Shown one piece after another: positions 40,896 through 44,176 of a stretch of 64,000 nucleotides of DNA. Made by a program: the position numbers and the translations under genes. This stretch comes from Bacilli bacterium (GTDB lineage Bacteria; Bacillota_I; Bacilli_A; RF39; UBA660). The DNA is taken from the NCBI GenBank assembly GCA_017612805.1, contig JAGAFD010000003.1, positions 62,001 to 126,000 of the forward strand. The letters are read 5' to 3'. The notes beneath the pieces were generated by a model, which did not search any database, had not been told where the DNA came from, and was given only the letters and a program-made list of their open reading frames with translations. Each line of letters begins with the position of its first letter. Positions within the stretch are counted from its first letter, which is position 1.

Positions 40896-41657
40896 ATGCC
40901 AACAATTAAAAACGGAAATTATCAAATTATTGATGTTTGTAGTAATGAAGCTGATGCCGGTTGTTTAAAAAAATATTATGAAGATAATAAGTGCGATGAT
41001 TATTGCATTATATCAATTAGAATGGGATTAGCTATTGGTGATATTAAAACTAATCATTTAGATATTGTTAGAGAATTATATAATGATCCTAATTATACTT
41101 ATCAAGATGACCTTGATAGTTTAATTAATAGTATTAATAAAGACATCAAGATTCGTATCTGGTCTTCTAAAATGGACAGTAATAGTTATTTATTATTACT
41201 TTATTTAACTAGTTTATTAAGTAGTTATGATAATCAAATATCAGTAATTTTTACTACTGATTACAATCTTGATGCAATTACTTTAGGTTGCTGTTGTGAT
41301 CGTGAAGTAAATGAATTATTAAAGTATGAAAAAGTATTATCGATTAATGAGCTTCATGATTATCAAAAAACTTGGGAAGATGTAGTTAATGTTAATAGTG
41401 AAATAAGAATTTTAGAAAATAATACAATTGTTAATAAAAACTATGCCGATTATGATGATTTAATTTTAAATAAATTATCCCAAATAGGGGAATGTAAGGT
41501 TTATGAATTAGTGGCTAAGTTATTATTAGATAATTCATTAAATATGTATGATGATTTTATTGATAGTTTCTTAGTTAAAAGGTTAATTAATCATCATAAA
41601 ATAGTTATTGTTCAAGCTGATGAAAGGTTTTACCATAATATAATTAAAAAAGACTAG
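40896..41657 (+). CDS. DUF1835/DUF3658-like protein
   Basis: A 253-residue soluble protein. The N-terminal half (CSNEADAGCLKKYY...CIISIRMGLAIGD) and the central KIRIWSSKMDSNSYLLLLYL, then an N-N-W-E-D-V-V segment and a C-terminal helical region with LNKLSQIGECKVYEL and FLVKRLINHHKI are consistent with the DUF1835/DUF3658 family by wording. That assignment is moderate. It ends with the residues KKD and TAG in the first arm of a bidirectional terminator shared with the convergent gene. Confidence 0.6.
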   Translation: MPTIKNGNYQIIDVCSNEADAGCLKKYYEDNKCDDYCIISIRMGLAIGDIKTNHLDIVRELYNDPNYTYQDDLDSLINSINKDIKIRIWSSKMDSNSYLLLLYLTSLLSSYDNQISVIFTTDYNLDAITLGCCCDREVNELLKYEKVLSINELHDYQKTWEDVVNVNSEIRILENNTIVNKNYADYDDLILNKLSQIGECKVYELVAKLLLDNSLNMYDDFIDSFLVKRLINHHKIVIVQADERFYHNIIKKD

Positions 41658-41675
41658 GATATCTAGTCTTTTTTA
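41645..41675. terminator. Bidirectional terminator shared by convergent genes
   Basis: AAAAAAGACTAG (41646-41657), loop GATAT, CTAGTCTTTTTT (41663-41674). The + gene ends at the first TAG, and the - gene ends at the mirrored TAG, so both proteins finish KKD. Confidence 0.85.
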
Positions 41676-42463
41676 GTATAATCTTTAGTTAATTCATCAA
41701 CTATTTCAAAACGATATTTTTGATTAGTTAAATTATCTTTACGATTAGGATCAATTTTTTCAAAAAACATTTTAGCAGGTCTAGCCCAGATATTTGAATC
41801 TTCGCGTTCATAAATATTACGATAGATTACCGTATATTCTTTAGTTTCAGAATCCATACAAATATCTTCAATATAATAATAGTTACCTTTAAAATGTCTT
41901 ACTACTTTACCAATATAATCTTTATAAACCATTGAGCCTTGACGGCCATCACTATTTTGATAAGTTTTAGTTTTTTTAGCACTATAAGAATTTTCTTTTT
42001 TAACTTTATGATCTAATTTTTCAAAAATAACTTGTGCTATTTGAATCTTTGGGGTAATCGTATAAGAATTAGTTGAATTATTAGTTAATGTTAAATTTAG
42101 TTTTCCTTTAAAACCGGGATTTAAATGTTGTACTGGAATAGTTATTCCTAAACGGTTAAAAGAAGTTCTTCCTCTAATTTCCCCACAAATATTATCCGGC
42201 ATATTAAAACTATCTTCTAATACTACTAGAATTGTTTCACCTGGTTTTAATGTATAACCTTCACTAATATTTACTTCTTCATACATATTATTTAAATCTT
42301 GGCCATCAATTAGTGAAATACTGCCTTTTTGTTTTTTAAAAGTTAAAATATATTTATCAAGTGTAACATCATAACTAGATGCATGAATATTTTGATTATT
42401 AGCATTCTCAATTAAGATGTTTTTACTTAAATATTTTTTGATTGTAGCGTAACTTAATACCAT
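41663..42463 (-). CDS. dCTP deaminase/dUTPase-like protein fused to DUF1653
   Basis: A 266-residue fusion. Residues ~1-155 are a dCTP deaminase/dUTPase jelly-roll with IRGRTSFNRLGITIP (99-112) and PGFKGKLNL. Residues ~184-256 are a DUF1653-type domain (GKVVRHFKGNYYYIEDI, SETKEYTVIYRNIY, ARPAKMFFEKI). In E. coli Dcd the general base Glu138 lies in VLEFYN; the aligned residue here is Thr125 (NLTLTNN), so ordinary deamination may not occur. ATG 42463 (minus) has a GGGGGAATATA leader. It could be a dUTPase-like or nucleotide-sensor variant. Confidence 0.8.
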   Translation of the reverse strand: MVLSYATIKKYLSKNILIENANNQNIHASSYDVTLDKYILTFKKQKGSISLIDGQDLNNMYEEVNISEGYTLKPGETILVVLEDSFNMPDNICGEIRGRTSFNRLGITIPVQHLNPGFKGKLNLTLTNNSTNSYTITPKIQIAQVIFEKLDHKVKKENSYSAKKTKTYQNSDGRQGSMVYKDYIGKVVRHFKGNYYYIEDICMDSETKEYTVIYRNIYEREDSNIWARPAKMFFEKIDPNRKDNLTNQKYRFEIVDELTKDYTKKD

Positions 42464-42517
42464 ATTATATTCCCCCTATAGAATCTATATAAATTATACC
42501 ATAAATAAATTTGATAA

Positions 42518-42557
42518 TTCAATTATTATTGAACTAAAATAATATCTAGCTTATAAT
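42518..42557 (+). promoter_or_regulatory. Promoter with palindrome upstream of the zinc-ribbon gene
   Basis: TTGAAC (42529-42534), 17-bp spacer, TATAAT (42552-42557). The palindrome TTCAAT-TATT-ATTGAA (42518-42533) overlaps the -35 and could be an operator. Confidence 0.55.
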
Positions 42558-43190: not shown

Positions 43191-43237
43191 AATGATTCAT
43201 TAACTAAAATATAATGGTGAATAAGAAAGGAGATATT

Positions 43238-44176
43238 ATGAAATTAGGAGAAAAGATTTATAAATTAAGAAAAGCTAAAAAATTATCTCAAGAAGAATTA
43301 GGTGAAAAACTAGATGTTACTAGACAAACTATTTCTAATTGGGAATTAGGTGAAACTAATCCAAACCCAGAACAATTAAAAAAACTATCTCAAGAATTAA
43401 ATATCTCAATTGATGAATTATTAGATAATGATTTAAAAGATGTCATAATTGAAAAAGTATCAAATACTGAAAGTATTACTAAATTAACATTTGATTTTAT
43501 TAAAGGTTTTTTAATTGCCCTTGGTTTAGTAGTTGTTTTATTATTTGGTTTAATCTTAGTTTATATGGTAAAGAAAACTGATAATGCTAAGAAAACGACT
43601 ATTGAAGAATCAATATATTGTAATATTTATGATGAGTTTCATAGTTTAGGAATGACTTATTATGAAGAAACCGGTGAAATTATTGAAGCAGGTGGAGATA
43701 CTTATTTTACGGATGTATTAGAGTTAGAAAAATATCATGATGCTCATCAAATTTTTAATATTATTAATGATTATGTTAAGAAAAATAATGGTAGTTGTAC
43801 AAGATTTGTTAATCGCGATTTAAGTTCTTTAGTAGAATTATCTATTAAAGATAATACTTTAACAAATACTTCAGCAACCCTTATTTTAAGAAAAATTAGT
43901 GATGATAATTTTGGCTTTGATTTTGGGGAAACTTATTATTTAGAAGTATATGATTATGATAATAATAAGTGGAACTCAGTAAGTGAAAAATGTAGTAACT
44001 GTGCTTTTAATGCTATTGGTTATCATATTGATAAACGCCATGATAAAGAATTAAAAGTCAATTGGGAAATGATGTATGGTAAATTAGATAAGGGATTATA
44101 TCGTATTGTAAAACCAATCAGTTTTGATTTTAATCTAGATGAGTTTTATCTATATGCTGAATTTGAAATAGACTAG
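43238..44176 (+). CDS. XRE-type HTH regulator with membrane helix and extracellular domain
   Basis: A 312-residue protein. The HTH domain at the N-terminus is LGEKIYKLRKAKKLSQEELGEKLDVTRQTISNWELGETNP (two HTH helices around residue 22-45), followed by a linker, a membrane helix (residues ~95-118, FLIALGLVVVLLFGLILVYMV) and a C-terminal extracellular or peripheral domain (~190 residues). Such one-component transmembrane regulators respond to external signals. ATG 43238 has AAGGAGATATT. Its stop TAG is in the terminator stem. Confidence 0.82.
   Translation: MKLGEKIYKLRKAKKLSQEELGEKLDVTRQTISNWELGETNPNPEQLKKLSQELNISIDELLDNDLKDVIIEKVSNTESITKLTFDFIKGFLIALGLVVVLLFGLILVYMVKKTDNAKKTTIEESIYCNIYDEFHSLGMTYYEETGEIIEAGGDTYFTDVLELEKYHDAHQIFNIINDYVKKNNGSCTRFVNRDLSSLVELSIKDNTLTNTSATLILRKISDDNFGFDFGETYYLEVYDYDNNKWNSVSEKCSNCAFNAIGYHIDKRHDKELKVNWEMMYGKLDKGLYRIVKPISFDFNLDEFYLYAEFEID

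Follow-up and report, generated by a model that had tools for sequence, protein, structure and literature searches.

A Dcd-fold protein of Bacilli with both catalytic positions replaced and a C-terminal DUF1653 domain

What can a protein of the dCTP deaminase (Dcd) type do once its catalytic Glu has been replaced and a DUF1653 domain has been joined to its C-terminus? This question was raised by a gene in the window, as we call the whole analysed stretch of 64,000 nucleotides from contig JAGAFD010000003.1, which belongs to a draft Bacilli genome of 1.05 Mb in 10 contigs, ~94% complete. An earlier note, made from the sequence alone, had pointed to the combination. The gene, its signals and the parts of its product were placed as follows.

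41663–42463, minus strand: coding sequence of the fusion protein, 266 aa with an ATG start, alone on its strand and convergent with the gene at 40896–41657 (plus strand)
42471–42477, minus strand: RBS-like AGGGGGA, 7 bases 5' of the ATG
42493–42522, minus strand: sigma-70-like promoter, TTGAAT-18-TATAAT with TG ahead of the -10, weak when taken alone (9 promoter-like sites versus 9.6 expected in shuffles)
41643–41677, no strand assigned: terminator-like hairpin between the convergent genes (the 2 found are one hairpin read on both strands; 0.2 expected)
42014–42463, minus strand: Dcd/dUTPase-fold domain, aa 1–150; PF22769 at 5.6e-27 (aa 2–150) and TIGR02274 at 110.3 bits (cut-off 92.8)
41918–42013, minus strand: linker, aa 151–182, containing YQNSDGRQGS, similar to the lid at the C-terminus of Dcd
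41705–41905, minus strand: DUF1653 domain, aa 187–253, the most conserved part of the protein; PF07866 at 1.2e-15, 58.1 bits versus a 23.5-bit cut-off
42146–42172, minus strand: GRTSFNRLG, aa 98–106, the phosphate-binding motif; R110, S111 and R115 of E. coli Dcd correspond to R99, T100 and R104
42119–42121, minus strand: Asn115, at the position of E. coli Dcd Asp128 and of the dUTPase motif-3 Asp
42089–42091, minus strand: Thr125, at the position of E. coli Dcd Glu138

The Dcd-type and DUF1653 profiles both matched within one ORF at a level well beyond chance, in the arrangement that the earlier note had described, and the GRTSFNRLG that it had read in the Dcd-like half is present. Elsewhere in the window, a gene at 43214–44176 (plus strand) encodes an HTH_3 DNA-binding domain and a Big_14 bacterial Ig-like domain in one protein, an odd pairing of a cytoplasmic-type with a surface-type domain.

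Homologous fusions, which the earlier note had suggested looking for, do exist. The uninterrupted fusion ORF was found at 10 loci with 9 distinct sequences, the proteins of L003 and L007 being identical and encoded on contigs of equal length, and the fusion is thus not an assembly error. Full-length matches occurred in at least 6 of 385 genomes of the order (G000, G372, G337, G130, G015 and G032), representing four genera, and nearly all of the remaining listed matches in the 385 genomes covered the DUF1653 part alone. Four further fusion loci were listed from GTDB contigs, in uncultured Bacilli/Erysipelotrichaceae MAGs, one of them from sheep rumen. Among plasmids 48 records matched, none over 80% of the query; among phage records 215 matched, two of them over 80% of the query, namely MT835477.1, treated below, and Aeromonas phage APT65, the protein of which keeps both Asp and Glu.

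We then compared the 9 distinct fusion orthologs, aligned with residue numbers taken from the checked E. coli K-12 Dcd sequence. The position of Glu138 was occupied by Thr in seven orthologs, by Ala in one and by Ser in one, in agreement with the earlier claim that the catalytic Glu is gone. Two further changes had escaped that note: the motif-3 Asp, at the position of Asp128, was Asn in 7/9 and His in 2/9, and the HVTA pocket loop had two residues missing, with no HxTA, in 9/9. The shortened loop carries, in all nine, an invariant Gln112-His113 pair that is absent from E. coli Dcd. The phosphate motif GRTSxNRLG, with its phosphate-binding role in Dcd, was present in 8/9, L005 being the exception; the position of Arg110 (R99) was Arg in every ortholog and that of Arg115 (R104) in eight, with Cys in L005, which has also lost R97 and the YQN of the tail, the latter being lost in L009 as well.

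Could another acidic residue take over? The window protein had no Asp or Glu in aa 97–131, and between aa 85 and 147 no column was acidic in all nine fusions, so that, as far as the alignment tells, a substitute Asp or Glu from these segments appears unlikely; one reaching in from elsewhere in an adjacent subunit may still substitute. In trimeric dUTPases motif V is a C-terminal GGFGST, as seen in L094; the fusion protein had no such motif, its YQNSDGRQGS tail being followed by DUF1653. Zinc-deaminase sites carry a PCxxC motif, and since the window protein has just two cysteines, C93 and C202, it has no such site. Taken together, the replacements make it very probable that catalysis has been lost, and the earlier suggestion that the protein may bind a nucleotide without deaminating it is favoured by them.

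The protein nevertheless passed the cut-off of TIGR02274, the NCBI dCTP-deaminase equivalog model. The same cut-off was passed by the MT835477.1 protein (locus L036), which also lacks both residues, and by the double-domain protein of L084, in which Asp and Glu are absent from each domain; the cut-off thus tests fold and not activity, which is a warning for annotation. Judged by its alignment, the name 'dCTP deaminase' fails on two defining residues when meant as membership and holds when meant as fold.

For that fold, phmmer against the PDB gave M. tuberculosis Dcd-Dut and E. coli Dcd, with the C-terminal part matching 3be3, a solved relative of the DUF1653 part that is an uncharacterised protein (E 0.0012). 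An AlphaFold2 model based on a 49-sequence alignment had a pLDDT of 87.9 and a pTM of 0.61, versus a pLDDT of only 54.9 with 6 sequences; in the Dcd half, pLDDT was ≥95 in 13 of 15 ten-residue blocks, and in the linker it was 54 and 52 at aa 161–180. Using Foldseek and VIA-align, aa ~1–165 of the model superposed on Dcd, the shared fold giving Z 18.4–20.5 at 24–27% identity for E. coli Dcd and the bifunctional Dcd-Dut of M. tuberculosis and M. jannaschii, and Z 19.6–20.5 for five E. coli Dcd entries (top 2j4h, Z 20.5). With these enzymes the fusion protein shares the phosphate motif, but it differs in the replaced Glu138 and Asp128, the HVTA loop shorter by two residues and the attached DUF1653. 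Values of Z 20.2 and 19.6 were obtained to 2j4q and 1xs4, by their entry titles E. coli E138A Dcd with dTTP and with dCTP, respectively, and a Dcd without Glu138 is thus still able to bind nucleotide. Our statements on the pocket were derived from alignments.

Mutants described in the literature bear on the second replacement. Passages of PMC5519681 and PMC4827122 report that the Asp-to-Asn change in M. tuberculosis dUTPase (D83N) and in human dUTPase (D102N), respectively, abolished catalysis with ligand binding unaffected. HVTA is described in a section of PMC4827122 as the dTTP allosteric loop, the peptide that moves on thymine binding, and the loop at this place is there given as 2–3 residues shorter in eukaryotic dUTPases. 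By analogy, the E138A and Asp-to-Asn mutants and the HVTA data together support a protein that would bind nucleotide with no turnover and no dTTP switch.

Selection was evaluated from invariant columns and from Nei–Gojobori dN/dS in 9 chosen of 36 possible pairs, the latter values being rough because synonymous sites were near saturation in several pairs. For the Dcd half, dN/dS was 0.09–0.27 in eight pairs and 0.54 in the very close pair L010–L011; for DUF1653 it was 0.03–0.17 in 8 calculable pairs. Of the 8 pairs giving a value for both domains, 7 had the lower one in DUF1653. The linker gave 0.38–0.86 in 6 of 8 calculable pairs, with 0.12 and 0.20 in the other two. These sequence comparisons suggest that both domains are under purifying selection. 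Invariant columns made up 53% of aa 183–256 (DUF1653) versus 31% of aa 1–150 (Dcd), and within the Dcd half they were denser in the stretch that holds the pocket motifs, with 27 of 55 in aa 94–148, including G98-R99-T100-S101 and Q112-H113, versus 20 of 93 in aa 1–93.

A split relative of the fusion was found in MT835477.1 (L036), a single phage record from human faeces marked UNVERIFIED, where a DCD-like gene, a gene for a 143-aa protein and a gene for a 76-aa DUF1653 protein lie in one row on one strand. Its DCD-like protein is 31% identical to the fusion protein, carries Asn and Gly where Asp and Glu would stand, respectively, and shows the same two-residue gap and QHxN; its DUF1653 is encoded two genes downstream. 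It differs in that the genes are split, with the 143-aa protein (coiled-coil/membrane by eye) between them, and in a K at the first phosphate Arg. When the phylum was searched with L036-type proteins, 6 of 295 genomes matched at E 0.001, only the window's own match being strong. In viral contigs no relative was found with the fusion alignment, the L036 protein or the L036 membrane protein as query, and a mixed alignment gave 7 matches.

Among 41 non-fusion alignment rows, only L036 and L063 (Helicobacter trogontum prophage type, P0002) were without an acidic residue at either site, and L128 had lost only the Glu. A tree of 49 DCD domains, from which near-copies among seven named rows had been dropped beforehand, separated the fusions, L036 and L063 from the remaining domains by a branch supported at 97/90 and joined L036 to the fusions with support 89/74; the branches are long and the placement is thus unsure. 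Such a topology would fit one loss of catalysis preceding the fusion. Three viral DCD loci (L103, L109 and L124) gave no ORF. A separate phage DCD group with TPIEPGW, from viral contigs (L064–L069, L127 and L129), carries a Glu where Dcd has Asp128 and lacks the one at 138; it comprises 8 alignment rows, and the 7 entered in the tree formed one clade.

We next considered what else the fusion genomes encode. A separate PF00692 protein above cut-off was present in all six, with the motif-3 Asp kept each time (IIDSDYY, LIDSDYY or IIDADYY); motif V reads GGFGSTD in four of them, the versions of G015 and G032 having diverged. By sequence these proteins resemble ordinary trimeric dUTPases. A search of 12 genomes for dimeric dUTPases gave no match above cut-off. 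In a PF22769 sample of 288 genomes of the order, with fusion genomes G337 and G372 outside it, the fusion was the sole match at E 0.001 in all four fusion genomes sampled (G000, G015, G032 and G130). No neighbour gene was common to all fusion loci; several flanking genes were common to L003/L006, to L005/L006 and also to L010/L011 (read as L048/L049), and a sugar-epimerase-like family lay near three loci. PADLOC and Pfam were run on 90 proteins flanking 9 of the loci. The 25 of 99 flanking Pfam families that were listed are mostly housekeeping (epimerase, NUDIX, HD, ComEC-like, VanZ and FtsW), with no phage structural family among those 25.

The best explanation, to which we give roughly even credence, is that the fusion is a non-catalytic, probably trimeric, nucleotide-binding regulator that displays DUF1653, where we infer the ligand, the trimer and the role of DUF1653. 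The Dcd-fold half would most likely still be homotrimeric, as is usual for the family, and would still bind a nucleoside triphosphate through the conserved GRTS..RLG; with the catalytic Glu and the motif-3 Asp both replaced, the bound nucleotide would be neither deaminated nor hydrolysed. With two residues fewer and the invariant Gln-His in the loop that forms the base pocket and dTTP switch, the protein probably prefers a different base and has probably lost the switch. The trimer would present three DUF1653 domains, which could act as an output or as a second ligand site, so as to form a nucleotide-dependent adaptor or sensor. Because this design is kept in relatives, nucleotide is probably sensed or held instead of converted, with the removal of dUTP probably left to the separate dUTPase, the gene for which is present. 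Counted against this explanation are the motif losses in L005 and L009, a hint that some members may bind nucleotide less strictly, the deletion of two residues, which could close the pocket, and the possibility that aa 94–148 are conserved for the core or for contacts within the trimer and not for a ligand. The lack of a neighbour gene common to the fusion loci, the single and UNVERIFIED state of the L036 record and the unsure tree placement also weigh on that side.

Besides Dcd itself and L036, two known arrangements come close to the fusion protein. The dUTPases of staphylococcal phages, which bind the Stl repressor of SaPI, belong to the same superfamily, and dUTPases with extra domains have been proposed, in a part of PMC5593958, to be nucleotide-dependent switches. 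Those are, however, active enzymes with motif VI, whereas the fusion protein is Dcd-type, lacks the catalytic residues, carries DUF1653 and lies on a bacterial contig without evident prophage; an action like that on Stl would be a hypothesis by analogy. The other is a dGTP triphosphohydrolase of genome G178 (L043, 386–1747, minus strand; 182.7 bits versus the TIGR01353 cut-off of 152.35), which shares the joining of DUF1653 to a dNTP-handling protein; in it DUF1653 is N-terminal and the enzyme is an HD phosphohydrolase, unlike the Dcd fold of the fusion protein.

Other explanations have to be weighed against this regulator. Possible, though in our opinion probably wrong, is that the Dcd half is a trimerisation scaffold only, with no nucleotide bound and DUF1653 doing all the work, as would agree with DUF1653 being the more conserved half by invariant columns and dN/dS, with the loss of the second phosphate Arg in L005 and with the poorly constrained lid-like tail. 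A mere scaffold does not, however, account for the denser invariant columns in the stretch of the pocket motifs, or for R99 and T100 being invariant in all nine. The kept phosphate motif, the invariant Q112 and H113, the low dN/dS of both domains and the passing of TIGR02274 would also suit a protein that is still an enzyme, such as an altered deaminase or nucleotide hydrolase that takes a different base and relies on other residues, e.g. Gln112-His113. This we consider unlikely, as Asp and Glu were lost in 9/9, aa 97–131 of the window protein hold no acidic residue and the equivalog cut-off tests fold only; moreover, the variable replacements (N/H and T/A/S) are unlike a new catalytic centre. 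Were the missing residues instead supplied by a second Dcd-type subunit, as may occur in three-domain Dcd sets of the order, complementary active-site losses would have a precedent in relatives, and a second Dcd gene might have been missed in an assembly ~94% complete. That reading is very improbable, given that the fusion was the sole PF22769 match in the fusion genomes sampled and that their other PF00692 proteins resemble ordinary trimeric dUTPases by sequence.

The earlier note had also linked Dcd-like proteins to phage defence. For this protein the idea was not supported, and a nucleotide-depleting or nucleotide-sensing anti-phage protein is quite improbable. Its spread is patchy, in at least 6 of 385 genomes and 4 genera, it has a phage-like split relative, and 31 PADLOC families matched at E 1e-4 among the 90 flanking proteins; but each of these families was found in at most 3 of the 90, and several look like broad-domain models fitting housekeeping neighbours (ComEC-like competence proteins and HTH regulators). 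In a PADLOC release that presumably contains a dCTP-deaminase defence model, the fusion protein and seven related proteins gave no relevant match, the best for the fusion being Cas2 at E 0.055, and phage defence was set aside for the protein itself, the catalytic residues of which are lost as well. The anti-phage dCTP deaminases tested so far are, as far as is known, of the zinc type, and a site of that kind is missing from the window protein. PMC12697855 treats the zinc-type enzymes as a family separate from E. coli Dcd. Barely credible, finally, is a decaying gene without function: several motifs are lost in L005, but dN/dS was well below 1 in both domains save for the 0.54 of one close pair, the ORF was intact at 10 loci and an RBS-like site precedes it.

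Beyond the regulator as such, we tentatively propose a wider reading, which we regard as rather doubtful. A lineage of dedicated receptors for dNTPs or modified nucleotides would have arisen by loss of the two catalytic residues, perhaps in a single event, with its hold on the phosphates retained and its base pocket rebuilt round Gln-His. Together with DUF1653, encoded near it in the phage-like element and fused to it as an output in rumen-type Bacilli, it would take its signal from the nucleotide pool. If true, nature would here have arrived at what the D-to-N and E138A mutants show in the laboratory, binding with no turnover. As put forward in a part of PMC5593958, dUTPases may be signalling proteins with dUTP as a second messenger. 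The staphylococcal signalling dUTPases are also active enzymes; in a conserved member that lacks the catalytic residues and carries a further domain, the two roles would be uncoupled, rendering the signalling idea directly testable and giving a first handle on DUF1653.

In the literature searched, DUF1653 was almost unmentioned, with one paper each under its name and under COG4728, which we take to be the same family. The earlier view that DUF1653 is usually encoded alone stood in part: short ORFs make up most copies, yet among the 69 phage ORFs obtained from 72 loci (3 gave none), 12 (10 distinct) exceeded 140 aa, with AAA_28, DUF3310 and Lar as fusion partners, and cellular copies are fused to the dGTPase of G178 and, C-terminally, to amylase-like enzymes at L052, L055 and L056 (genomes G668, G660 and G611; L052 recognised through NCBIfam matches under the cut-offs, the other two by eye). 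From these varied cellular and phage fusions it follows that DUF1653 is a mobile accessory domain, and that fusion to it is not rare, contrary to the claim that it appears unusual. The fusions to amylase-like enzymes, Lar and DUF3310 rule out a purely nucleotide-linked domain, and a particular link with dNTP proteins is no more than suggested. With a home-made DCD profile, a dUTPase-type gene was found in 6 of 72 phage DUF1653 loci; with Pfam, dUTPase made up 3 of 116 immediate neighbours, and NRDD, radical-SAM/Fer4 and Thy1 occurred once each. By the DCD profile, which matched 2 of the 116 immediate neighbours and 4 of the 786 remaining ORFs, enrichment beside phage DUF1653 was not significant (p = 0.17), and adjacency to dUTPase in phages was set aside as evidence.

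Multi-domain Dcd proteins were also seen in the order. In 11 of 288 genomes, the source genome of the window not being among them, three DCD domains were encoded in two adjacent ORFs (L075–L085; genomes G125, G117, G121, G194, G020, G099, G227, G028, G055, G210 and G211). In all eleven, ORF1 keeps D128 and E138 and has lost R110/R115, the second domain (B) of ORF2 keeps R110/R115 and has lost Asp and Glu, and the first domain (A) of ORF2 has lost R115 and E138, with the Asp kept in 2. Since Dcd active sites lie between subunits, as described in a part of PMC4827122, these complementary losses look like a natural obligate pseudo-heterotrimeric Dcd with one composite active site, as far as sequence can suggest. 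Tandem DCD pairs occurred at L042 (1364–2409), L073 (1754–2804) and L074 (1637–2676) of genomes G320, G212 and G193, where one copy keeps the Asp and has Glu138 changed to Gln and the other keeps the Glu and has Asp128 changed to His; G102 (L072) showed a third combination, in which Ala has replaced R115 in one copy and E138 in its partner. In genome G209, a protein at L088 (591–1769, minus strand) joins a guanylate-kinase-like domain to a DCD-like domain, followed by a C-terminal coiled coil and membrane helix (by eye); its DCD-like domain keeps the Asp, has Leu in place of the Glu and has lost the phosphate Args, and its PADLOC match to VakA (8.6e-07) covers the kinase part only.
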